Source: Annona cherimola (taxonomy: Eukaryota > Streptophyta > Magnoliopsida > Magnoliales > Annonaceae). From it: a stretch of DNA of 64,000 nt. The stretch is taken from positions 5,438,007 to 5,502,006 of the forward strand of contig CM059971.1 in NCBI GenBank assembly GCA_030490835.1, read 5' to 3'. Positions 1 through 64,000 of the stretch are shown piece by piece. The position numbers and the translations under genes were made by a program. The notes beneath the pieces were generated by a model. That model did no database searches. It was not told the DNA's origin and saw nothing but the letters and a program-made list of their open reading frames with translations. Every line of letters begins with the position of its first letter. The stretch's first letter is position 1.

Positions 1-2952
1 AAATAAAGCTGAAACGAGTACGATTCGTTCGAACTTGATTTCAATAAGGTATCAAGTTAAAGGAAATATAAGGGGGTACTTGTCTCTTCTTACTTTGAAA
101 CTAAAGTCACTGAGGTTAAAGCGGATTTGCTTGTGCATTTAGTTTTGATTCTCCTAAACACAATTTGGTCAGTTTAAAGTTAATTATGACTGAAAAAAGG
201 ATAAATGATCTCTTAATGAGTTTATTTTTATTGTGTGCAAAAAGAGAATAAGTTTAAGTAAGAATAGACTAAAAGTACCTATTTGGCAAGTACCTATAAG
301 GACATGAAAAATGATGAAAAAATTACGGGTGGTCCAATACAAAAGAAACCAAATAAGAAATTTGGTCATTACTTTAGACAGACTATTGGACACATAGAGG
401 AAAATTATACTAATAATGGTACATTTTTCACTTTGGTTTGTTCGGTGATTAATTTAGCCTTAGACCCAAGACACATTTTTTATGAATAGATTTGGTGTTG
501 CTATTCATGTAAGGGTGTCATGCGGGGTTGTTTGAGTTGCTAAAGGGCAAAATGATGATGAAAGATTCATCGATGGAGGCGATAGCAAATCAAATACTAT
601 GGAGCCTATATGGAAATTTTAGTTATTATTATTAAAAACTCAATTTTATTTAAATTCGAAAGAGACATATGGTACCATTTTTAAATAGAATTTGGTTATT
701 CTTATTCATTTGGAAATAGTTAATTTAGTTCTTTCTTTTGAATTTAAATATTATTGGATATGCTGAACAATATCAAGATGTAAGTCCTATGATCCCACAT
801 TCAGTTCTATTGAGACCAAAAATGTCAATTTTTTTTAGGATATTGAGTTTGAGGGGAAAATATGATTAGAGACTATGTCTTTAAAGAGAAATCTATAAGA
901 CATCGTTGATAAACAGGATGTTCCTGATGATCAAGCTCAACACCCTCAAGAATGGATGTCATTGAAGTGATCTACTAGAGAAAGGAGAATGCAGTTTCTG
1001 ATTATTGCATCAAATTTCTCCAGTATATCAAGATGACATTGGAATGGTAGAAGGTGATTCCATCAAACAATGCAAAGTAAAACCTCTCAAAAGTAGATTG
1101 ATGTCATAAGTATGTGATTAAGTTCATGAAAGATAATGACGATTTGGTAGCCTGTTCCATTACCTAAAGGTATAAAACTGATTGGTTATAAATGGATATT
1201 TAAAACCAAGAAGGAGGGTAATGTGGAAAGGCATAAGGATTATCTTGTCACAATGAACTTTACTCAAAAGGAAGGCATCGATTATAAAGAAATTTTCTCT
1301 CCAGTTTTATTGAAAATTTCTTTCAAAATAAATGACTTTAGTAATGATTTTCGACCTTGAGTTATAGTAAATGGATGTAAGGATAACATCTATAATAGAC
1401 TTTCAATTTTTTAAATAAAAATCCATCTACGAGCTCAAGCAATTTTTCTAATAATGGTATTGCAAATTTCATCAAATTATTATTTCATTTGGTTTTGAAA
1501 TGAATTCGGTTGATGATTGCATATACTATAAGTTCAGTGGGAGTAATCATAGTTTAAGTGGGAGTAACACACAAATATACTGTTTTCCAACATCAAGATA
1601 AGTTTATTGCATAAACTTAAGATATTTTTGTCAAAGAATTTTGAAACGAAATATCTTGAAATATGTCTTTTGTATTAGGAATTCATATATATCAGGATTA
1701 TTCTAGATGTATTCTTGGATTATCACAAAAGACATATATTAAGAAAATACTTAAGATACTTGATGTGCAGGATTGCAAATTAGGAAATACCTCATTGCTA
1801 AGAAAGACAAAATTAATTTTGTCTAAATCAATGTCCTAAGAATGATTTTAAATCTAAGAAAATACAAAAGACTCCCTATGCTTTAGCAGTGGGAAGTTTG
1901 ATTTATGTTCAGGTTTTGAATCTCAGGATGTATGCATTCGGTTACTGCATACATTATTGGGATGTTGGGCAGATATTTAAGTAATTTATGAATGAATCTT
2001 TAAGATGTAGCCAAACAGATTTTTAAAACATTTTTAGAAAACAAAACAATGTATGTTCACATGCAGAAAGTCATATACGTAAGAGATTATTTAGTATTCA
2101 GATTTTGACTTTATTGGATGCAAATGCAGTTTTAGATCCACTTCAGGCTATATTTATCTGTCTGTTAGAAAAGCTATATCAGGAAAAAGTGTTCAACAGT
2201 CACTTATAGCTTTTCGACCATGACAACAGATTTTATAGTATATTATGAGGCATCCAATTATGGAATATGACTACAAAATTTGTCACATGGCTATAAAATA
2301 TAGATAACATTGAAAGACCACTTAAGTTATTTTGTGATAATAAATTAGTAGTCTAATATACCAACAACAACAGGAGTTCAGCAATGTTCCTGATTGTTAA
2401 GGAAAGGATTCAGGAAAATAAAGTGTCTGTAAAGCATATTGCGACAAATTCCAAAATTGCGGATCTGCTTACTAAGGGTAACACCTTATGGTCTTTCATG
2501 AGCATACTACTCATATAGGTGTTGTATCATTTAATGATATGCTAGTTAAGTGGGAGTTTGTATTTATTTGCTTTTCTGGTTTGGACATTTTACTATGGTT
2601 ATGGATATTTTCTGCAGAAATAAAGTATTCAGTATTTTAGTTTTTCAGTACTTATGGTTTTGGTTTGATCTCACCAAATAAGGTGGACCAGTTGGAAATA
2701 GGCATGTTAGATCACATTACATGTAATTTCCATGCTACGCATCCATACTTGATTTATGTCATTTGGTTATGTTTGATATATGTGATCATGGATGGGTCTA
2801 GTTATGATAAATGTGACAAAGGCCGCCTTGGTTCTATGTTGGCATAACTAATGGACGAGATTGTTCGGAGATGATTTTAGTATGATAGCAAAAGGTTTTG
2901 AGCTCATAAGGTTATATATAATTATAAAATATATGTAGTCCAAGTGGGAGAT
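1..2952 (+). pseudogene. Internal region of a decayed Ty1/copia retrotransposon (gag-pol remnant)
   Basis: Broken copia polyprotein readable in three frames. Around 100-300 is gag-like sequence (FGQFKVNYD, then a stretch ending KKRISLSKNRLKVP). Around 380-480 a degenerate zinc-knuckle region is followed by GTFFTLVCSVINLA, the usual lead-in to the copia protease. Around 1145-1310 is reverse transcriptase (KLIGYKWIFKTKKEGNVERH, then EGIDYKEIFSPV). Around 2200-2480 is the RNase H end (VKERIQENKVSVKHIA in a shifted frame). A purine-rich tract at 2940-2951 precedes the 3' LTR. Stops and frameshifts are everywhere. Almost no integrase is recognisable between protease and reverse transcriptase, so the element looks internally deleted and could not move itself. 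Its 5' LTR lies left of the window. Recognition is by family motifs; exact domain edges are inferred. Confidence 0.85.
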
Positions 2953-3412
2953 TGTTGAAATTTTGGACATACAATATATTAATTATATGTATACGCTATC
3001 ATAAATAGCGGCCCAAATTATAAAGTGATCTTATAAAGTTTTATGGGCCTAAATCATCTAATAAAGTATGGATCTCCTATGCGTAGAAACCCTACAGCCT
3101 AATTTTTAATTTCTATTTTTATGATGGGCTAAATTAGAAATACAAAAGATAGGCTCCCTATATAAATGATTGTGGTCCCCGGGTTATGCACCTATGAGGG
3201 TTCTTTTCTACCATCCCATCGGTAGAGAAGATGAGCCACATTCTCCATAACCCTAGGGCATTAACCTGGAAGACCAAGAAACCACAAGGATTCAAGAACA
3301 ACTGCTTCTATGGATTCAGGTACGCTTCCGCTTATGGTTTTATTTTTCTTAGTGATTTGGCATGGAGAATCCTGGAATGATTATGGATTTAATCAATATG
3401 GTTTTTCCAACA
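2953..3412 (+). repeat. 3' LTR of the copia element
   Basis: Starts TGTTGAAATTTTGG directly after a purine-rich primer tract (AAGTGGGAG) and ends TTTTTCCAACA, giving the TG...CA ends of an LTR, about 460 bp. The middle holds a TATAAAT-like box (about 3160) and downstream GC-richer sequence as expected of a promoter-containing LTR. The next bases (CTACT, 3413-3417) should be the right copy of the target duplication; the left copy is outside the window. The sequence right after the LTR is terpene synthase exon 6. Confidence 0.8.
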
Positions 3413-3850
3413 CTACTATCTTTCGGCTAAACAATGATTTGCAAAGTTCCGAGGTTTAATATATATGTTCACCTCACTCACCTATTTCCATATCTTTGTT
3501 AGTACTTTAGCTATTTAATTCAAATCATCTACGAATTAACTCGATGGATGCAGGAAGAAATGTTGAGAGGCGACGTGCCCAAATCCATCCAATGTTACAT
3601 GAATGAAGCTAGCGTCCCTTTGGAAATAGCCAGAGAGCACATCAAAGGCGTAATTCACGATATGTGGCAAAAGATGAACAAGTATTTGATTGATCCCAGT
3701 CCACTGCCGAAGCCTTTCATTGCATCTGCTTTCAATTTGGCTCAGACATCCACCTGCGTATATTTGTATGGAGATGGATATGGGGTACCATATGGGGAGA
3801 ACAAAGAAAACATAATGTCACTGTTGGTTTATCCCATCCCGCTTCACTAA
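3413..3850 (+). pseudogene. Terpene synthase TPS1: exon 6 remnant plus intact last exon
   Basis: A terpene synthase of the TPS-a/b type, cut by the copia insertion. The end of exon 6 (3413-3453) reads IFRLNNDLQSSE, intron 6 is 3454-3553 (gt...ag), and exon 7 (3554-3850) reads EEMLRGDVPKSIQCYMNEAS and on to a stop after PIPLH. RGDVPKSIQCYM is the hallmark start of the last exon of angiosperm mono- and sesquiterpene synthases. Across the splice the residues N-D-L-Q-S-S-E-E-E fit the second metal-binding motif (N,D)Dxx(S,T)xxxE. Exon 7 is open and uninterrupted for 98 codons, so this copy was probably functional until the retrotransposon landed. Exons 1-5 and most of exon 6 must lie left of the window, beyond the rest of the copia element. 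Product specificity cannot be read from this end of the protein. Confidence 0.85.
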
Positions 3851-3866
3851 AAGAGCACTAGGAATG

Positions 3867-6800: not shown

Positions 6801-7819
6801 ACCTTCAATCACTGCCGGTAGCATCAACGACATGGGTGACCAACATGATCACATTTCACCTCCTCCTTTCTCTCCTTCCTCTTCTTTCCTTCTCCCTTTC
6901 TTCTATCCTACTCTTCTCCCTTTCTCTTCCCTCCTCCCCCTGTTCACCTGACCATGCCCAAGGGGCTGCCCCTTTTTGTGGACCCCATTTTGGTAGTCCG
7001 TGTGTGCAAACATGTGGCTACCCCCTGTGATGTTTTATTATTTTTTTATTTTCTCAGGTATTAATTTTTTCGCCCATCTTACATTTTCAACATCTTCAAT
7101 GATTTGACTCTTCATTTTTAGGCCGTTAATTTTATAACTAACTCTATTTATAATCAACATACGCATAATTTTTTTATAATTATTTTCAATTTAACATCTA
7201 ATTTCTATTTTCATGGAATCCAAATTTATTTATCTGATAATGTCTCATGCCTTATTTACATGTGCAAAAATTGCAAGTTCTATATTTCCATATATATTAT
7301 TTCAAAATAATTTCTATTTAAATAATTTAGACAATCTAAATTATTTATTACAATAATTTAAGAGGAGTAATTTTGTTAGTCTGGGCTAAGCAAATGTCCT
7401 ACTTATCCCACCTCAAAAAATCTATTTAAAAGCACTTCTTTTTATTTTTTCTTCGTATACTTATTTATCTAAGTGTATTTAACATTTAAACTAAGCTTTA
7501 CCTTTTTTGGATATATGTACATATTATTTTTAAGATTTTTAAATATATACACATATTCCAAAATGGTAAAACTTTTTTTATATGTTAAATATACTTAAAC
7601 AAACAAGTGTATGGAGAAAAAGCAAAAAAATATTTTAAAATGAGTCTTTTGAGGTGGGCTAAGTGGGGTATTTGCTTAGTCCAGGCTAGCAGGATTACTT
7701 CTCATAATTTAATTTCCCTGAATTAATTATAATTAACTTAGTTAATTTATTTAGCCCAAAAATATACCTATTTATTTATATCATAGGCTAATATATATTA
7801 TAAAATTGTGGGCTCTACA
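3867..7819 (+). mobile_element. Probable solo LTR, about 3.95 kb, inserted 17 bp after the TPS1 stop
   Basis: Begins TGTAATGCCCTGACC and ends GTGGGCTCTACA, so it has TG...CA ends. It is flanked by GAATG on the left and AAATG on the right, a 5-bp target duplication with one mismatch. No gag-pol reading is visible inside and no second copy of the ends is present, so it looks like one very long LTR left after recombination. Length and termini resemble the long LTRs of Tekay/Del-type Ty3/gypsy elements (family judgement, not tested). A non-coding LARD element is the alternative. It carries a family-F MITE (7361-7703). Small open frames inside (for example 6749-7030) are not supported as genes. 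Confidence 0.65.
7361..7703. mobile_element. MITE family F, nested in the solo LTR
   Basis: Left end AGAGGAGTAATTTTGTTAGT and onward TCTGGGCTAAGCAAAT. Right end, read on the other strand, AGAAGTAATCCTGCTAGCCT and onward GGACTAAGCAAAT. The two ends are inverted copies over about 35 bp. ATAATTTA lies on both sides, an apparent 8-bp target duplication. The inner part is a weak palindrome with the motif TATCTAAGTGTATTTAACAT that recurs in other family-F and family-B copies. Confidence 0.7.
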
Positions 7820-7932
7820 AAATGCAACATATACTTATTTAATTGTCACATATATGTATATTTGGAAATTTAGATATGCATGTGTGCTAGGAGATTTTAA
7901 AATACTTTCTATAATTAATGTATGGATTTTGA
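7820..7932. other. Resumed TPS1 3' flank
   Basis: After the solo LTR the original flank resumes. GGAGATTTTAAAATACTTTC at about 7891-7910 aligns with GGAATTTTAAAATAATTTC just after the TPS2 stop (about 25892), so both genes once shared this 3' flank. No gene seen. Confidence 0.5.
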
Positions 7933-8320
7933 TCCTATGCACCTAGGTTCCTTGGCTTCAGTGCACTCAGGTGCAAATACCCTTTTTTATATTTTTTTTA
8001 AAAAAATTTCACATAACTGTTAATCTAGATGTATTTAACACGTGTATCAATTATTACTATTTTTAGAGTTTTTAGATATTTTTCTTTGAATTTTTAAAAA
8101 TCAGTGGATTTTTTTTAAAATAGTAGCATTTTAGTAAATTTAAATTACTAAAAAAACCACTGATTTTTAAAAATCTAAAAATCTCTAGAAATGGTAAAAA
8201 TTTATTCACTTATTAAATATATCTAGATTAATAGTTTTGTGAAAAATTTTCAAAAAAAATATTAAAAAATGAATATTTGTACCCGAGTCACCGGAGCTAA
8301 GTGTACTCACGTGCATAGGA
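7933..8320. mobile_element. MITE family B, full copy
   Basis: Ends are inverted copies: TCCTATGCACCTAGGTTCC on the left and, read on the other strand, TCCTATGCACGTGAGTAC on the right. The inside is an AT-rich near-palindrome (AATCAGTGGATTTTTTTTAA against AAACCACTGATTTTTAAAAA). The ORF at 8269-8463 starts inside it and is not a gene. Confidence 0.65.
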
Positions 8321-9640
8321 TAAGTTATATTGCACGAACTTATATGCAAACACTCAACCCAAACCTTGGTGATTTTACATTTTCAACTTCAACAATGTAC
8401 CTGATAGACATCCAACCCAACAACAAACAAGACATGGACTGGGTCATCTTGCGAGTTGTTTAATTAATTTGTCTACTCTTTGAGGAAAATTAGATTCTCG
8501 ATTTGGACCATATGAAAATAAATGCCGAACTCTTATACATAAATAGTTGCCCATAGTCCATTTTAACATATATAGTTGCCGAGTTCAAATGATATTATTA
8601 TATATGCCCCTTCATGTGAATTTGCCTTCTATCGTCTAAGCCCCCAATGTGAGATCTCAATAGTACATTCTCTACTGGTTCAGAACAAAATTTAAAAAAA
8701 TAACTTTCTAATTTTTGAATATTCAGGTGGTGGGTGGATTATCTTAATCTCTAAAAAGGTGAATGACACTTTTATAGACTAAGCACTACACACATGTGCC
8801 ATGGCACAAGTGCAAATTGTTTTCTTTTTTTAACAGTGTATATTTACATCACATCTCAACTTCTATTACAATCATGCTTTGAGACAATTTTTATAATTTT
8901 TCAAAGGAAAATTATATTATTTAATCTCATTTTTTCGTCGTACAGATCATCCCTCAAATACCCATCTTACAAATCACCCTTAAAATTCCTCTAAATATTT
9001 CTTATAATTTTCAAGGAAGACCAACTACTACCATGGAGATTTACAACTCCCACGGAACAAGGAACGAATTTTTGCCATCACCACCATTGGAGCCCTTGAC
9101 TCATGACACCTATGGCAGTTCGAGCTAGCCTCAAGCAATTGCTTTCTTTGAATATGTCTTGGACAAGACCAATCAGTAATTCGTACTATCCAAATACGAC
9201 TGCGGCTTAATTTGTTTGGGGTTGTGTAGCCACCTTGATTTTTGGTCAGGAGAAAAAATAAATAAATAAAAGGACTTGGGACGGGTGAGATCTTATTAAT
9301 TCAGATTTCTGCCCGCAAGAAACTTTTTGTTTTAATTTAAGTCGATACTTTCATATCCAGATAAATTTTTTTCCGGCTTAAGCTTAATTAATTAAACTTC
9401 ATTTCGCTTTTTATTGGGCTAGTACTGTTTGCTAGCTACTTTGTCAACTCAATAGCAAATAATTAAGACTAAAAAATTATGAATTTTGTGATTAATTAAT
9501 CTGCCAAATGCCAATAGTAAAGAACTAAAGATGGGAGTCGTCTAGATAGCATCCAAGAAAAATTAACAGCTTAGGTTCGTGTAGGCAGAGCAGACGGTTA
9601 AGATGAATGGGAGAGAGAGTTGCGAGGCTACGAGATTTAG
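8321..9640. repeat. Duplicated terpene synthase flank, blocks X, Y, Z (first copy)
   Basis: No gene. Three blocks recur downstream of TPS2. X (about 8550-8790, with TTCAAATGATATTA and TCTACTGGTT) matches about 30000-30200. Y (about 9131-9235, with CAATTGCTTTCTTTGAA and TTGTTTGGGGTT) matches 30233-30296 and 30663-30690. Z (about 9394-9635, ending GCAGACGGTTAAGATGAATG) matches about 26050-26255. About 330 bp of unrelated sequence (8810-9130) splits X from Y. These are old segmental duplicates of the TPS flank, and the block order differs between copies. Confidence 0.6.
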
Positions 9641-19213: not shown

Positions 19214-20538
19214 CTGCTCTGAGACAGTTGAGCCAGCTGCTGTGAGGAGGTAAGGAAACTTTCAACCTAGAATCTGGACTAAGGACTTCACGCAATCTCT
19301 AAAGAGCGATTACTCGGCGAGTAACCACCCACAAGTTCACAATTTATCAGTATTATTTTTCTGAATTTTAGGGATTCATTACAGTTTGGGACTTTAATTT
19401 TGACTATTGGGTATGGTGTCGCAGGGTGATGCGTTTATGTTGCAGAGGGAGGAGCTGAAGAAAGATGTGAGGCAGAGCCTTAAAGAGGTAGGTGGGCCAC
19501 TTGTCCAGTTGCAGTTGATCAATGACCTCCAGCGTCTGGCAGTCAGCTGCCTCTTCGAGACAGCGATCGACGATATTCTGAATGCCATATATAGAGGTTA
19601 TGGCGAAAAAGAGATGGAACGTTGGGATGTTCATTCCACGGCCCTCTGCTTCAAGGCTGCTTAGAGGCTGTGGGTTTGACGTCTCACAAGGTGTGGATAC
19701 ATGAGTCTATATGACTTCTCAGAATTTGCTGAAATCTCCCTTCAAACCATCCTATTTCTAAAGTTTTACATCAAATAATTAGAGCTAGCTGCAATTAAAG
19801 CAATTATATTTTTTTATGGGCAGAAATAGTCCGTAGATTCATGGATGGAATGGGTAATTTCCAAACAAGTGTTAGCAATGATCCAAATGGGTTGTTGAGT
19901 CTGTATGAATCTTCCTACCTTTGGATGCCTCGAGAGAACCTTTTTGGATGAGGCCAACGCCTTCACGTGCAAGCATCTTAAGGATTTGAAGTTGAAGGAA
20001 AAGCACATAGAGTACCCCCAGCATTGCCAAGCAGGTGCAGCAAGCTATGGAGTTTTCAATACATTGGAGGATGCCGAGGTTGGACAGTCGATGGTATATA
20101 ACAATTAATGTATGAGCAGAAGCTAGGGTGGAATGAAACCTCTCTTGCTTGAACTTGCTAAGCCTATTTTTAACATGCTCCAAATCCTTCACCGGAGCGA
20201 GCTGAGGAAGTTCTCAAGGTGGTATGTATATATGTGGTACTCTCCCATTTAAGAAATTCTCTCCATCCGTCTACTCATATGCTGTTCTTGGATGTCTATT
20301 GATTTCAACTAATTAATTAAGTAGGTGGTGGAACGACTTGGGAATTGCTGAGAGGTTCAGCTTGGCAAGAGATCGCCTCATGGAGAGTTACCAATGGGCC
20401 ATGGGAAGAAGTTCTTCCCAAGCCCATCCATCTCACCACAACCCTTGATGATATTTACGATGTTTATGGTTTAATGGATGAATTGAAGCTTTTCACAGAC
20501 ATAGTTGATAGGTATGTTAACTCAGAAGCTTTCATCTA

Positions 20539-21446
20539 TAACACAAGAAAATTTATTTTTAATAATACTTATTACAAAAAACTTTTGTTAGCAAGAAACA
20601 CGATAAGAAATCGTGAAACTGTTTTGCCACCGTTATCGTAGGGTCACGGCAGGGGTATATTTGTAAAGATATGGGTATATTTGTAAAGATATGCAAACTA
20701 TATAAGTATATTTTCAATTTTAGAAATTAAGTGAGTATATTTAGTTTTTGCAAATATACCCTCACAGTTTACATATCTTTTGCAAATATGCTAATACTGT
20801 GATAGTGCAGTAATGACAAATGAATTGTGTATATTTGCAATTATGGAATAATAAGTAGGGGTGACTTGCGATTTTTGAAATTATGTGAGAATATTTGCAA
20901 TTATAATCAAACTAAACAAGTATATTTGCAAATTATCCATACTTGATAAAAATTTGAGTTAGCAACATAAATAATTATTGTCACTAAAAATCAACTTTTA
21001 ACAATAATAATATAACAAATGTTTCAAAAAGTAATCTTTTGGTAATGTCGTCAAAATATAACTATAAGTAACAAATTAAAAAATTGACAAAAGACTTTTT
21101 TGACAGAATTATAGTGATGTGGTTATAGTGACATCATAGTAAAAATTAACACAAAATTTTGTATTGATAAAAGTTTTTTTCTGGTGAAAATATGTAAGGA
21201 AGAATTGTTTCTTTGGTTACGTAATTCTCTATAGGCAAAAAAAACTTCTCTCAGTGTAATAATATTTTTCCAACCAAATTAAATTTGGTTGCTAAAGTAT
21301 AAAAATTATGAACTATTTGTAAACAAATTTACTTTTAACGGTTGATGTGAGATATGCCATCTATTGTGGGCAAAGAGTGCTTTTTAGCAACATTTAACCT
21401 TTTGCAGTAAAAGTTTTGATGGACCAAAATTAAAATTTTCGTAGTG
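20539..21446. mobile_element. CACTA-like non-autonomous element in TPS2 intron 4
   Basis: Left side ACACAAGAAAATTTATTTTT. Right end, on the other strand, CACTACGAAAATTTTAATTT. The pattern resembles the CACTACAAGAAA termini of plant CACTA elements, and the inside has repeated GTTAGCAA/GTTGCTAA motifs as in the clean CACTA copy at 50880-51184. CTA lies on both sides but the left terminus is degraded. A family-E fragment with an 18-bp tandem duplication (GGTATATTTGTAAAGATAT) lies at 20655-20935. Confidence 0.5.
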
Positions 21447-22108: not shown

Positions 22109-22589
22109 AAAGTGTTCTAAGTAAAAGTTTGTTTGGATTTTGTCACCCCATGTGACATGAATTAATTAATTGATAATCATTTGACATTGATTAATTGATT
22201 TTGGATTTATTCCAATGGTTGTTCCTTGTAGGTCCATATCATGACTTTCATGAGGACTAAAGATTTTCACGCATATTGTCCATAAAAAGTTTAGTAAATC
22301 TCTATGCTTAAATATTGCAGTGGCAAATTATTGCAAAGCAGAACTACTGGAGGCAAAATGGGCCAATAGCAAGTACAACCCTAGTCTCAATGAGTACCTT
22401 AACAATGCATGGACCTCCATATGAGGTCCTGTCGTGCTAACCCATACATTTTTCTTCCATGGACAAAAGCCATCCAAAAAGTCCCTCTATTGCTTCATGA
22501 CTGATCAAGTCCTGATGCGATTGTCATCTATTATTTTTCGGCTTAACGCCGATTTGGGAACTTCCGAGGAGTTTCTAATATACTATAGG

Positions 22590-23125: not shown

Positions 23126-24240
23126 ATAACAAATATTCAAGTGCAGCTTCACCACACCACAATCACAGTGCAACTACCTCAAAATAGGCCCCATGTAATC
23201 ATAAAATTATAATAATTATAATCTACTCCACTCATTGTATTTAGAATTATGCATTCTATTACCATACCAATTTTCTTCCCAATTAAATATGTCTATGGAC
23301 CCTATCTAAAAATAGTACAAATTCAACGTAATAAAATAGTTTGATGGAAATAATAACTTTAAAGTTATTTTGTCAGCATGTAAACTATTTGCTACAAAAT
23401 TTATATATGGATAAATGATTATATAAAATATCAATACATTTAAGTACATATAGAGCCCATTTTGGGTCAAATGCATCATTAATTATGGTGCAGTTTCACT
23501 GCACAAGAAAGATTATAGAGAGAGATATTATATATACAGAAATATTCAGGTGCAGCAATGCTAAAATGGGCCCTATATGATAATAAAATTATAATCTACT
23601 TCACCCATTATATTTACAAAAAACGTATTCTATTATCATACTAATTTTCATCCCAATTAGATATGTATATGGGTCCCATCTAAAAATGGTACAAATTCAA
23701 CATAATAAAATAGTTTGATGTAAATAATAACTTTAAAGCAATTTTTTCAACATGTAAACCATTTATTATAAAATTTATATATGGATAAATGATTGTATAA
23801 AGTTTCATTGCATTTTGACATGTGTGGGGCCCATTTTTTTTCAAATGAACAACTGCACCGGAACAACTCCCTTATATATATATAAAGGAGTTATTCCGGT
23901 GCAACACAATTACACTGGAACAACAGTACATTTGATCAAAAGTATGCTCCACATATATTAGAATGCAATGAAACTGTATACAATCATTTATCCATATATA
24001 AATTTTATAACAAATGATTTACATGTTGAAAAAATCATTTTGAAGTTATTATTTACATCAAATTATCTTATTACGCTGAATTTGTACCATTTTTAGATGG
24101 GGCTCATATACATATTTGATTGGGATGAAAATTGGTATGGTAATAAAATATTATTCTAAATACAATAGGTGGAGTAGATTATAATTTGATGATCATGTGG
24201 GGCCCATTTCAGCGATGTTGCACCGGAATATATATATATA
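23126..24240. mobile_element. Three family C MITEs in a row in TPS2 intron 6
   Basis: Copies at about 23126-23505, 23535-23870 and 23880-24240. Each is bounded by GGTGCAG/CTGCACC-type ends (ATATTCAGGTGCAGCAATGC; CAACTGCACCGGAACAACTC; TTATTCCGGTGCAAC) and carries the same core (ATAATCTACTCCACTCATTG, CTAAAAATGGTACAAATTCA, TGTGGGGCCCATT). The third is in opposite orientation to the second, so the pair can fold back. Two more copies lie at 44110-44455 and 44486-44843. Confidence 0.65.
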
Positions 24241-24244
24241 TATA

Positions 24245-25422
24245 GATTTATTCAGGTGCATTTGGACTGCACCGGAATTCCCCTGCAGACGCCCCATCCG
24301 GCCATCCATTTCAGCGGGTGAAATTTGCGCCGCTTCTTCCATCGTGTGTGTACATGTAGATGGAGACGGCGAGCCGAATGAGACTGCGCATACACACGCT
24401 CAAAACTTCGGAGAATGCTTTTTCCCGCTCATCCCTCCCATTTCAAAAACGGAGACGACGACACTGCTGCTGTTGCCACTGCTCTCGAATCTCCTTCTCC
24501 GTCGATTTCTCCTTCTCCGTCGAGCTGCTGCTGCCGCCGCTGCTCTCGAATCTCCTTCTCCGTCGATTTCTCCTTCTCCGTCAAGATTTTGAAGATCTCC
24601 GTCGAGATTTCAAAGTTCTCCGTCGATTCCGAAGTTCTGCGTTGACGGAAGGGGTCGTCTTCTCCGAAAATCCGCATGCGAATTATAACTGCGCAGCAAA
24701 AGTACTCTCATCTGCATCTCTTTGATGCGAAAATCCGCATGCGGATTCTGAATCCACATGTGGAAAACAACACTGATGGGAGGTACGTTTGCTGCGGATT
24801 CAAAATCCGCATACGGATTTTCGCGTCAGAGAAATGCGGATGGGAGTACTTTTGCTGCGCAGTTATAATCCGCATGCGGATTCAGAATCCGCATGAGGAT
24901 TTTCGGAGAAGACGATCCGCACGAATGGGAGTACGGGCTGGCGCTTGCGAAGGAGGACGGGCTGGTGCTTGGGAAGGAAGACGGGCTGGCGCCTGGGAAG
25001 ATGACTTCGTCCACCGCCGACCGGACGAGACGATCTGATACGGGCTTGGAAGACGACCAGGTTGGGAAGGAAGACGATGGAAGAAGACCAGGAGGAGGGA
25101 AGACGATCGGGAGCCCTTGATGCTGGCCTGCTGCGCGATTTGGGGATTGGGGGCGATTTCGGTCGGTCGGGACTTAGAGATTAGGGCGCGGGTGGGATTG
25201 AGGAGGGAAGCGAGAGAGGAGGAGGAGGCGTGAGCGGGATGGGTTTTTTCTTTTTTTGCTACCGAGCGGGAAAATGCATCCTCCACATATATGTGCAGTC
25301 TCGTTTGGCTTCTCAACACGCAGAATCGAAGAAGCGGCACAGATTTCGCCCGCTGAAATGGACGGCCGGATGGGGCGTCTGCAGGGGAATTCGGGTGCAG
25401 TCCAAATGCACCTGAATAAATC
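24245..25422. mobile_element. GC-rich element with long (about 165-185 bp) terminal inverted repeats
   Basis: Left arm about 24245-24430 starts GATTTATTCAGGTGCATTTG. Right arm about 25258-25422 is its inverted copy at roughly 85-90 percent (ends TGCACCTGAATAAATC). Long TIRs and a GC-rich interior suggest a non-autonomous Mutator-like element. AT-rich flanks hide any TSD. Inside: a 40-bp direct repeat (GCTCTCGAATCTCCTTCTCC at about 24480 and 24540), an inner inverted repeat with arms about 24655-24745 and 24830-24922, and a 24-bp motif three times (24935-25006). Many overlapping ORFs on both strands (24197-25340) are by-products of GC richness; none resembles a protein family I know. It replaced the intron 6 end and the exon 7 acceptor of TPS2. 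Confidence 0.7.
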
Positions 25423-25662
25423 TCATATATATATATAAACGGTGAGAGGCGATGTGCCCAAATCCATGCAATGTTACATGCATGAAGCTGGCGTCCCTGT
25501 GGAAATAGCCAGAAAGCACATCAAAGGTGTGATTCACAACTTGTGGCAAAAGACGAACAAGTGTTTGATTGATCCCGGTCCACTACCGAAACCTTTCGTT
25601 GCATCTGCTTTCAATCTTGCAAGGACGTCGACTTGCGTATACTTGTACGGGGATGGATTGGA

Positions 25663-25833
25663 GTTCTAAGTTATGTAAAATTCTTGAATTGAATCTATAT
25701 CATAAGACAACTTTTTAAAATTTAAATACAATTTTACTTATTTTCAATACGACTTTTACTTATTTTCAGTACACATAATTACATTCTCCTCTTATATATA
25801 GATTCAATATAAGAATCTTGTATAATTTGGAAC
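25663..25833. mobile_element. 171-bp foldback MITE in TPS2 exon 7
   Basis: Left end GTTCTAAGTTATGTAAAATT. Right end on the other strand GTTCCAAATTATACAAGATT. The inverted arms run about 45 bp each (through GAATCTATAT). It splits the last exon after GDG: the insertion adds LEF and a stop. The original tail (MSLFVYPIPLH, stop at 25875) resumes after it, exactly as in TPS1 exon 7. Confidence 0.8.
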
Positions 25834-33000: not shown

Positions 33001-33320
33001 CAAACTGTTAAAGCCGTTCAGTTGCGTGTCGCTCACTACTCCTCGATCTGGTTTAACTGCAGAAAACAAGAGAGAGAGACAGGACGGGAGAAGCAACGAA
33101 GAAGGCGAGATCGAAAGGATTCTGTTATCGATCTTGCTGCGAAAGAAGGAAGAAAAGAAAGAAAGAAGATCGAAAGGATTCTGTTATCGATCTTGCTGCG
33201 AAAGAAGGAAGAAAAGAAAGAACGAAGATCGAAAGGATTCTGTTATCGATCTCTCAGGATCTTCGTCTTCGACCATCTCATCCAATCTCTTCAGAGCGAA
33301 GTTCGTTTTCTTGTAGAATT
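33000..33320 (+). other. Probable non-coding first exon with a 59-bp tandem repeat
   Basis: GA- and CT-rich leader-type sequence. A unit beginning GATCGAAAGGATTCTGTTAT starts at 33109, 33168 and 33227, so the period is 59 bp; two full copies are followed by 26 bases of a third. Because 59 is not a multiple of three, and the long frame over it (32941-33519) has no recognisable domain, I read it as untranslated leader rather than coding. The exon/intron border is not certain. Confidence 0.5.
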
Positions 33321-44109: not shown

Positions 44110-44942
<833 letters not shown>

Positions 44943-62975: not shown

Positions 62976-63430
62976 TTAATTTACAATTCGACAAGATTAC
63001 GGGGTCTATTTGAGAAAACCCGCATTCAGACTTGAGTGGTCCTCGGACCACCTAGCTTTTTTCCTACAAGAATAATAAATAAAAAAGGACAATGAGAAGG
63101 GATAGAGAGGAAAGGAAGGAAAGAATCACTCGACACCCCCATTTGAGCTGTGCCATAGCTGGCTTTGACGGTAGCTCCCACTCTCCCCCCAATAACCCTA
63201 AAAAAACCCCATCCATCCCCCCATTCTTTCCTCCTTCCTATTCCCATTTCCTATTCCCTGCCCTGAGACCCTCCTCTCCAAAGGCAAAAGGAAAAAAGAA
63301 AAGAAAAGAAAAAGGAACCCACATTTTCTATTTCTACCCTTCAAATGCTCCGTGCCCTTTGCATGCCATGAAGAAGAAGAGCAGAGGAAGAAGCGAAGCA
63401 GCAGCAGCAGCAGCAGTTTCAAACCATGAG
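62976..63430 (+). promoter_or_regulatory. Promoter and leader region of the LRX gene
   Basis: From about 63130 the sequence becomes CT- and GA-rich (CTCTCCCCCCAATAACCC, CCTCCTTCCTATTCCC), typical of a plant 5' leader. A (CAG)n run, GCAGCAGCAGCAGCAGCAG, lies just before the start codon. ATGAGATGA at 63426 is a two-codon upstream ORF overlapping the main start region. AATAATAAATAAAAAAGG at about 63070 is only a weak TATA candidate. Confidence 0.4.
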
Positions 63431-64000
63431 ATGAAGCAGCAGAGCAGCCAAAGCAGCGACATTTGCAGAAAAGGACTCCTTTTCTTTCTCTTTTTCTCTC
63501 TCGCCATTGCATTTCTTCCTTCCGCTCTCTCCTCCTCCTCCTCCCCATCTTTCTTCCATGGCGTCGGCCTCACCGACGCCGAAGCGCAGTACATCCGCCA
63601 CCGGCAGCTCTTGTACTACCGCGACGAGAACGGCGACAGAGGCGAGAACGTCACCGTCGATCCCTCCCTCGCCTTTGAGAACCAGAATCTCCGCAATGCC
63701 TACATCGCCCTCCAGGCCTGGAAGCTCGCCATCATCTCCGATCCCCTGAATCTCACCGGCGACTGGGTCGGATCCGATGTCTGCAACTACACCGGCGTCT
63801 TCTGCGCCATATCGCCCTACAGCCCCCGCCGGAGAGTCGTCGCCGGCATCGATCTCAACCACGGCGACATTGCCGGGTACCTCCCCGAGGAGCTCGGCCT
63901 CCTCACAGATCTCGCGCTCTTCCACATAAACTCCAATCGCTTCTGCGGGACCATCCCCAAGAAGTTCAAGGACCTGAAGCTGCTCTATGAGCTGGACCTG
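63431..64000 (+). CDS. Leucine-rich-repeat extensin-like protein (LRX), N-terminal 190 codons
   Basis: Open in one frame from ATG 63431 to the window edge with no intron, and cut off there. Residues about 15-35 are a hydrophobic signal peptide (GLLFFLFFSLAIAFLPSALS). The conserved LRX N-terminal domain follows: LTDAEAQYIRHRQLLYYRDE, FENQNLRNAYIALQAWK, then the capping motif GDWVGSDVCNYTGVFC, then the first leucine-rich repeats (VVAGIDLNHGDIAGYLPEEL; LTDLALFHINSNRFCGTIP). In full-length family members about ten LRRs are followed by a cysteine hinge and a Ser-Pro-rich extensin tail; these lie outside the window. LRX proteins are secreted, anchor in the cell wall and bind RALF peptides in wall-integrity signalling (family knowledge). 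Strong G/C third-position bias contrasts with the AT-rich surroundings. Start choice: the ATG at 63426 gives only two codons, while 63431 leads directly into the signal peptide. Confidence 0.93.
   Translation, partial: MKQQSSQSSDICRKGLLFFLFFSLAIAFLPSALSSSSSPSFFHGVGLTDAEAQYIRHRQLLYYRDENGDRGENVTVDPSLAFENQNLRNAYIALQAWKLAIISDPLNLTGDWVGSDVCNYTGVFCAISPYSPRRRVVAGIDLNHGDIAGYLPEELGLLTDLALFHINSNRFCGTIPKKFKDLKLLYELDL

Follow-up and report, generated by a model that had tools for sequence, protein, structure and literature searches.

A GC-rich element with nested palindromes in Annona cherimola as a probable non-autonomous Mutator-like element of a family targeting TA microsatellites

In a stretch of 64,000 nucleotides from Annona cherimola (contig CM059971.1, positions 5,438,007 to 5,502,006 of assembly GCA_030490835.1; hereafter the window), a GC-rich segment with palindromes inside palindromes lies between two TA microsatellites, and it raises the question of what kind of element it is, how it entered its site and where its interior came from. 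According to our analysis, the segment, here termed E4, has the architecture that a preliminary description had given it, namely that of a GC-rich element with long terminal inverted repeats (TIRs) and nested palindromes. The TIR arms are identical at 98 of 107 positions without gaps (92%; six transitions and three transversions), and the 165-185 bp reported earlier for the outer arms are a fair estimate if gaps are allowed, as the gapped alignment extends to about 24430/25264. The inner inverted repeat is likewise present: positions 24669-24882 align with themselves as an imperfect palindrome of 214 bp (82% over 220 columns), and its arms (24652-24758 and 24793-24918) agree at 97 of 107 aligned bases, the right arm having an additional module of 19 nt. 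The recurrent motif AATCCGCATGCGGATT is itself a 16-bp palindrome, the core 14-mer of which occurs five times with up to two mismatches, against 0.08 expected. Among the smaller repeats, the 24-bp triplicate was recovered, while the presumed 40-bp direct repeat is in fact a 61-bp unit in two copies. The composition differs sharply from the surroundings, with a GC content of 0.54 and a CpG observed/expected ratio of 1.15, while the window has a ratio of 0.66 and mostly 0.25-0.40 GC per kb, so that E4 sits in AT-rich DNA.

Full-length relatives of E4 are abundant in the genome from which the window was taken (G000, 792 Mb), so that a lack of other copies, named in the preliminary description as a refuting outcome, does not apply. 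With E4 as query at least 186 matches were obtained (40 of 472 candidates scored); among the 14 loci L002-L015 the match covers query positions 1-1178 or 1-1177 in 12 and begins at 2 and 33 in the other two. Family copies measure about 0.9-1.3 kb, and 19 near-complete ones share 89-95% pairwise identity (mean 92%). The family terminus in better-preserved copies is GGGATTTATTCAGGTGCA, a pattern that occurs 1,093 times in the genome with up to two mismatches (556+537), compared with 13 times (5+8) for the reversed pattern. While the family termini are GGG...CCC, those of E4 have decayed to TAG...CTC, and since its terminal Gs are mutated, E4 is probably immobile today. Alternating TA runs of at least five bases flank 29 of 37 copies on both sides (a set including both L021 and L022), and a motif of the terminal type was present on the far side of the TA tract in 13 of 36 copies (15 of 72 sides; L021, the same site as L022, being omitted here), compared with a rate per side of 2.4% for stretches drawn at random from the window. 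Several loci (L019, L022, L024-L027, L029, L034, L040 and L085) combine an A-type with a B-type end, an arrangement suggestive of exchange between the two subfamilies of TIRs.

Mutator-like elements (MULEs) generate target-site duplications (TSDs) of 8-11 bp, typically 9. Of the first 30 loci, 27 allowed both ends to be located (L012, L025 and L028 lack one cleanly placed end), and the 9-bp TSD that was to be sought in better-preserved copies was found to be exact in three copies located outside perfect TA runs, namely L029 (TTATATAAT), L030 (GATGTTAAA) and L052 (CTTCTTATA). Within a TA run the parity of the duplication can still be read: an odd-length duplication leaves the same base on both sides of the element and an even-length duplication leaves different ones, an outcome that slippage by 2 bp at a time does not alter. 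A detector that is blind to parity and relies on TA runs of at least 5, GGG...CCC ends and matching TIRs was applied to L001-L090, where it found 36 elements; in the window it found none, the termini of E4 being worn. The same base was present on both sides in 35 of the 36 TA-flanked elements (p about 1e-9), in 33 of 34 when L021 (the L022 site) and the composite L073 are left out, and in 26 of 29 elements of a hand-curated set. In contig orientation the concordant elements comprise 24 A..A and 11 T..T, the same/different count being independent of orientation.

Relatives of 6.5-11.2 kb carry transposases of the FAR1-MULE-SWIM type, some of them as open frames of 779-786 aa. The element L071 (8,715 bp) is inserted in TA, has TIRs of about 143 bp (96.8% over 158 columns including the TA flank) and encodes a 782-aa frame with FAR1, MULE (PF10551, 3.9e-29) and SWIM domains. 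L072 (9,451 bp) has a TIR of about 533 bp (88%, TA flank subtracted) that is 85% similar to the E4 TIR over 186 columns, and its 143-aa frame corresponds to the transposase C-terminus (40% to L071, 2e-28). Some 70 genomic places resemble this piece at about 78-88% identity, and several of them represent the C-terminal end of the open 779-786 aa frames; no internal stop was present in 10 of 58 transposase matches among those listed. Upstream of the open transposase frame of L091 lie (TA)11, a TIR and palindrome modules (2730-2965), the TIR matching the B-type TIR of L030 at 82% (83 bp) and that of E4 at 72% (75 bp). The L091 TIR as query retrieved 40 places in the genome at 91-100% identity, which form 16 pairs spaced 6.5-11.2 kb apart, all 16 enclosing a transposase match (in some cases a C-terminal piece only), and 8 single ends that each have a transposase match within 12 kb. 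The high similarity of these TIRs suggests that the transposase-bearing elements have moved recently. A pair of 6.8-kb elements (C7:13692773-13699584 and C7:14061860-14068670), separated by about 370 kb and nearly identical in their TIRs, is perhaps a segmental duplication. Two further observations concern the structure of the large elements: a 531-aa frame on the minus strand of L071 (5434-7026; PF20167, putative plant transposon protein) faces the transposase, and L072 contains an internal inverted repeat of about 1.3 kb (2546-3856 and 7800-9143, 92%), which is thus a further case of a palindrome within TIRs.

We posit that E4 is a non-autonomous MULE of a family that targets (TA)n microsatellites, moved in trans by a FAR1-type transposase from relatives of about 6.5-11 kb, and we assign this reading a probability of about 0.92. 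The Mutator-like assignment, already proposed in the preliminary description, is supported by the 9-bp TSDs, the TIRs of more than 100 bp and the FAR1-MULE transposase of the relatives; E4 itself encodes none. A number of points weigh against this reading. The TSD of E4 itself is unreadable, with TA on both flanks, L037 is a clear exception to the parity rule, and L014 and L040 have an ambiguous terminal base in the hand-curated set. L072, the closer relative, retains only a piece of the transposase, while the TIRs of the elements with open frames are only 72-74% similar to the E4 TIR over about 75-97 bp. The 779-aa frames were assigned to FAR1-MULE through about 65% identity to L071, and among the 13 linked copies at least L010 and L013 resemble chance motif matches.

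The proposed course of events would be as follows. The related large elements would make the transposase, which would act in trans on E4, recognise its TIRs (GGGATTTATTCAGGTGCA...) and integrate it within TA repeats through a staggered cut of 9 bp; once the gaps were filled, either side would carry a 9-bp copy of (TA)n. Where one tract served as target more than once, head-to-tail arrays like that at 23129-25424 may have arisen. The palindrome would have been inherited from a larger relative that has corresponding modules between its TIR and its transposase frame, and the exact parent lineage of E4 is putative. Because the family also includes large elements whose TIRs match closely and whose transposase frames are open, the targeting is directly testable.

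The interior had been suspected to be captured foreign sequence, a proposal that our comparison mostly does not support. The L072 element matches 820 of the 1,182 bp of E4, and the L091 modules match the E4 palindrome at 90% over 114 bp, their end being separated from the start of the open frame by about 60 bp and from that of the transposase match by 120 bp. Most of the interior is therefore family sequence and not captured host DNA. A Pack-MULE origin, in which the GC-rich interior represents a captured host gene fragment, could account for the high GC content and CpG ratio of E4 in an AT-rich genome and for positions 24905-25250, which L072 leaves unmatched and L091 matches weakly (about 80 bp, 75%). 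This part otherwise recurs in family copies, however, and the composition is a family trait, given that all six relatives measured have a GC content of 0.53-0.54 (CpG observed/expected 1.21-1.33). The inner palindromes of these six relatives span about 43 to 573 bp. Six open reading frames of E4 had no Pfam match at E 0.1, and a protein search with one interior frame returned no homologue. We therefore consider gene capture an improbable source of E4's interior, and reject it as the main one.

Whether the hairpin itself has a function is a related question. Folding as RNA, which had been suggested as a check, showed that 24650-24922 is far more stable than its shuffled versions (-183.3 kcal/mol, z = -24; none of 200 shuffles equally good), and the whole of E4 also folds strongly (z = -21 against 20 shuffles). 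The hairpin could thus be a small-RNA locus under selection, either as a source of hairpin RNA or as a young miRNA gene, and the arms of the family majority are indeed complementary at 86 of 90 positions (TIR: 103 of 107). In the 19 near-complete copies of the first 30 loci, all turned one way, the arms of a copy were however no more complementary to each other (hairpin 0.879, TIR 0.904) than to the arms of other copies (0.885 and 0.902). Maintenance of the hairpin within copies was rejected on these grounds; the near-perfect double foldback seems to have been inherited, with each copy decaying independently thereafter. The result speaks against the hairpin being under selection in single copies, while a role in the relatives that bear a transposase is not called into question by it. 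The ten arm differences in E4 (plus strand, by eye) comprise five wobble pairs and five mismatches, and E4 had no Rfam match at gathering scores; an identity as a tRNA or an Rfam RNA was rejected as well.

The decay of the same 19 copies points to methylation. Relative to the family majority there were 718 transitions and 151 transversions, and C-to-T changes per site amounted to 0.086 in CG, 0.069 in CHG and 0.023 in CHH. This pattern is expected for DNA methylated at CG and CHG and makes past silencing likely; it would also fit a small-RNA locus, but a CHH rate this low is no specific sign of small RNAs and lends no special support to small-RNA-directed methylation. Given both lines of evidence, a selected small-RNA locus seems unlikely to us. 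A further, rather doubtful idea is that the palindrome serves as a built-in silencer, read-through hairpin small RNAs from the copies matching the leader of the transposase-bearing relatives and damping these mobilisers in trans. This would resemble the action of Mu killer on MuDR in maize, but as a trait of a whole family and not as a single accident. Some other explanations of the architecture were also rejected: the inner palindrome showed no match to the TIRs in a self-comparison of E4, which speaks against a tandem-TIR MULE, and a separate nested insertion of the hairpin should have left a TSD of its own, whereas no word of 5 to 9 bases is common to the 25-bp flanks of the hairpin. A FAR1-binding motif, CACGCGC, is absent from E4, and a search of viral contigs for the exact TIR string gave nothing useful.

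How MULEs enter microsatellites is disputed, and the authors of the guayule study doubt a cut-and-paste mechanism for many insertions (PMC5907723). In their model for SaTar elements, circular intermediates with microsatellite filler enter microsatellites by homologous recombination and without a TSD, and the TA flanks and apparently non-nested arrays of the E4 family are indeed like those of guayule (PMC5907723). Inherited filler would result in a single register, however, and unconstrained joining in mixed ends about half of the time, while 30 of the 36 elements, turned to E4 orientation, showed 17 T..T, 12 A..A and only one mixed pair (L021, the L073 composite, L071, L072 and the neighbours in L005 and L017 being omitted). 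The copies are related by descent, yet their target sites are separate events. Together with the exact 9-bp TSDs outside perfect TA runs, this makes recombination of the SaTar type very unlikely for E4 and its relatives. The same-base parity and the presence of both registers favour direct staggered-cut insertion with an odd-length duplication, which would agree with the 9-nt duplications of a few MuTAnT copies outside perfect TA (PMC4486113). A Stowaway-like (Tc1/mariner) miniature inverted-repeat transposable element (MITE) would explain the TA flanks, but its TA-dinucleotide duplication is incompatible with TSDs of 9 bp, and in view of the TIRs of more than 100 bp and the MULE transposase of the relatives we give it virtually no credence.

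E4 is the last unit of an array of at least four elements (23129-25424), the others being AT-rich, located to its left and spaced by TA tracts (Table 1). The ends of the array elements have ACTGCACCGGAAT in common, with 12 matches (up to two mismatches) against 0.76 expected, all of which fall within this array and a second one. The first array is located between two exon pieces of one terpene-synthase copy. Positions 25437-25658 are 86% identical to 3558-3779. For the exon at 3503-3847, matches were obtained both to PF03936 and to terpene synthases with known structures, which marks the host as a seed plant and, by implication, a flowering one. In the paralogue near 3,380-3,780 a short intron apparently occupies the place of the array, and the resemblance of this paralogue to the sequence left of the array stops at a short TA run. 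Since the last exon of the array-bearing copy begins right at the TA-tract edge, without the CAG that precedes it in the paralogue, this copy may be a pseudogene. The exons at 3503-3847, 20321-20638, 22501-22576 and 25437-25669 apparently belong to two or more copies. Elsewhere in the window, a 59-bp tandem repeat (2.5 copies, 98% matches) occupies 33108-33252, and positions 63000-64000 are GC-rich (0.53), possibly as a gene start, and contain low-complexity pieces weakly similar to the E4 interior (E 0.025).

Table 1. Features of E4 and its setting (positions within the window)
Feature	Positions	Strand	Remarks
E4, GC-rich, probable non-autonomous MULE	24243..25424		Termini placed from relatives
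E4 left TIR	24245..24351	+	Best 107 bp; gapped similarity reaches ~24430
E4 right TIR	25316..25422	-	Partner of 24245-24351
E4 inner palindrome of AATCCGCATGCGGATT modules	24652..24918		Self-comparison, folding, motif count
61-bp unit, two tandem copies (93-94%)	24464..24585	+	
24-bp unit, three tandem copies	24928..24999	+	Within 24905-25250, the stretch unmatched by L072
(TA)n tract, left end of E4, common to neighbour E3	24228..24244		
(TA)n tract, right end of E4	25425..25437		
E3, AT-rich MITE-like array neighbour, inverted copy of E2	23885..24227		
E2, array neighbour	23537..23872		TA tract 23873-23884 between E2 and E3
E1, array neighbour	23129..23528		TA tract 23529-23536 between E1 and E2
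Second array, related elements F1 and F2	44112..44844		Split by TA tract 44464-44484; then (TA)48 to 44940
Terpene-synthase exon tail, in-frame ..SSIIFRLNADLGTSEE, left of array	22501..22576	+	Probable exon end
Last exon region of terpene-synthase copy, begins at TA-tract edge	25437..25669	+	

Several known systems resemble the E4 family. MuTAnT and AutoMuTAnT of Medicago truncatula are (TA)n-targeting MULEs of modular foldback structure; 218 MuTAnT copies were described, 90% of them 200-300 bp long and 36 inserted in introns or untranslated regions, with 9-nt TSDs outside perfect TA in 14 of the 218 and a Jittery-like transposase in a large relative (PMC4486113). The E4 family has in common with MuTAnT the (TA)n target, the foldback of modules, the 9-nt TSDs, the transposase in large relatives and G-rich termini with a variable number of Gs (MuTAnT TIR mask GGGGTTTGCTAGAACA). 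It differs in its length of about 0.9-1.3 kb, its 54% GC, its second internal palindrome and its TIR sequence, and compared with the 218 copies of MuTAnT it is represented by about 1,100 termini by pattern. Micron is a further TA-targeting foldback MULE cited in the MuTAnT, SaTar and pineapple papers.

SaTar elements of guayule, rice, sorghum and citrus are non-autonomous MULEs of about 0.4-1.9 kb with microsatellite flanks; in guayule 19-47% are linked in non-nested arrays, members of 11 of 15 families have 10-bp TSDs, and many microsatellite insertions were considered inconsistent with cut-and-paste transposition (PMC5907723). The E4 family shares the microsatellite flanks and modular arrays, but its TA insertions keep odd-length duplications; this comparison concerns insertion sites and arrangement. 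The parity test requires an assembled genome alone, and could be applied to guayule, rice, pineapple and Medicago; the 35 of 36 found here point to ordinary 9-bp staggered insertion. In pineapple, the Ac-mMITE elements are clustered Mutator MITEs of 210-570 bp targeted to (TA)n, with 9/10-bp TSDs outside TA, for which that study found no autonomous partner (PMC8449440). They are like the E4 family in target, clustering and the TSDs outside TA, and unlike it in that the latter has large transposase-bearing relatives.

Long TIRs with additional repeat structure are also known from MULEs with multiple or tandem TIRs, in which the additional repeats represent a second copy of the TIR, for the most part arranged in tandem (PMC3310237), whereas the inner palindrome of E4 has no detectable relation to its TIR. 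Mu killer of maize is an inverted-repeat derivative of a MULE (PMC3440606); for the E4 palindrome, in contrast, the only matching sequence lies upstream of a transposase frame, and any silencing role would be hypothetical. In the open-access literature without supplements, neither motif strings nor terms for TA-targeting MULEs retrieved a published description of the E4 family among the matches listed. As foldback MULEs that target TA are already known, the E4 family is a further family of that kind, and what it adds, as far as the literature was searched, is the parity evidence, the tracing of the palindrome to sequence upstream of the transposase frame and the set of transposase-bearing partners.
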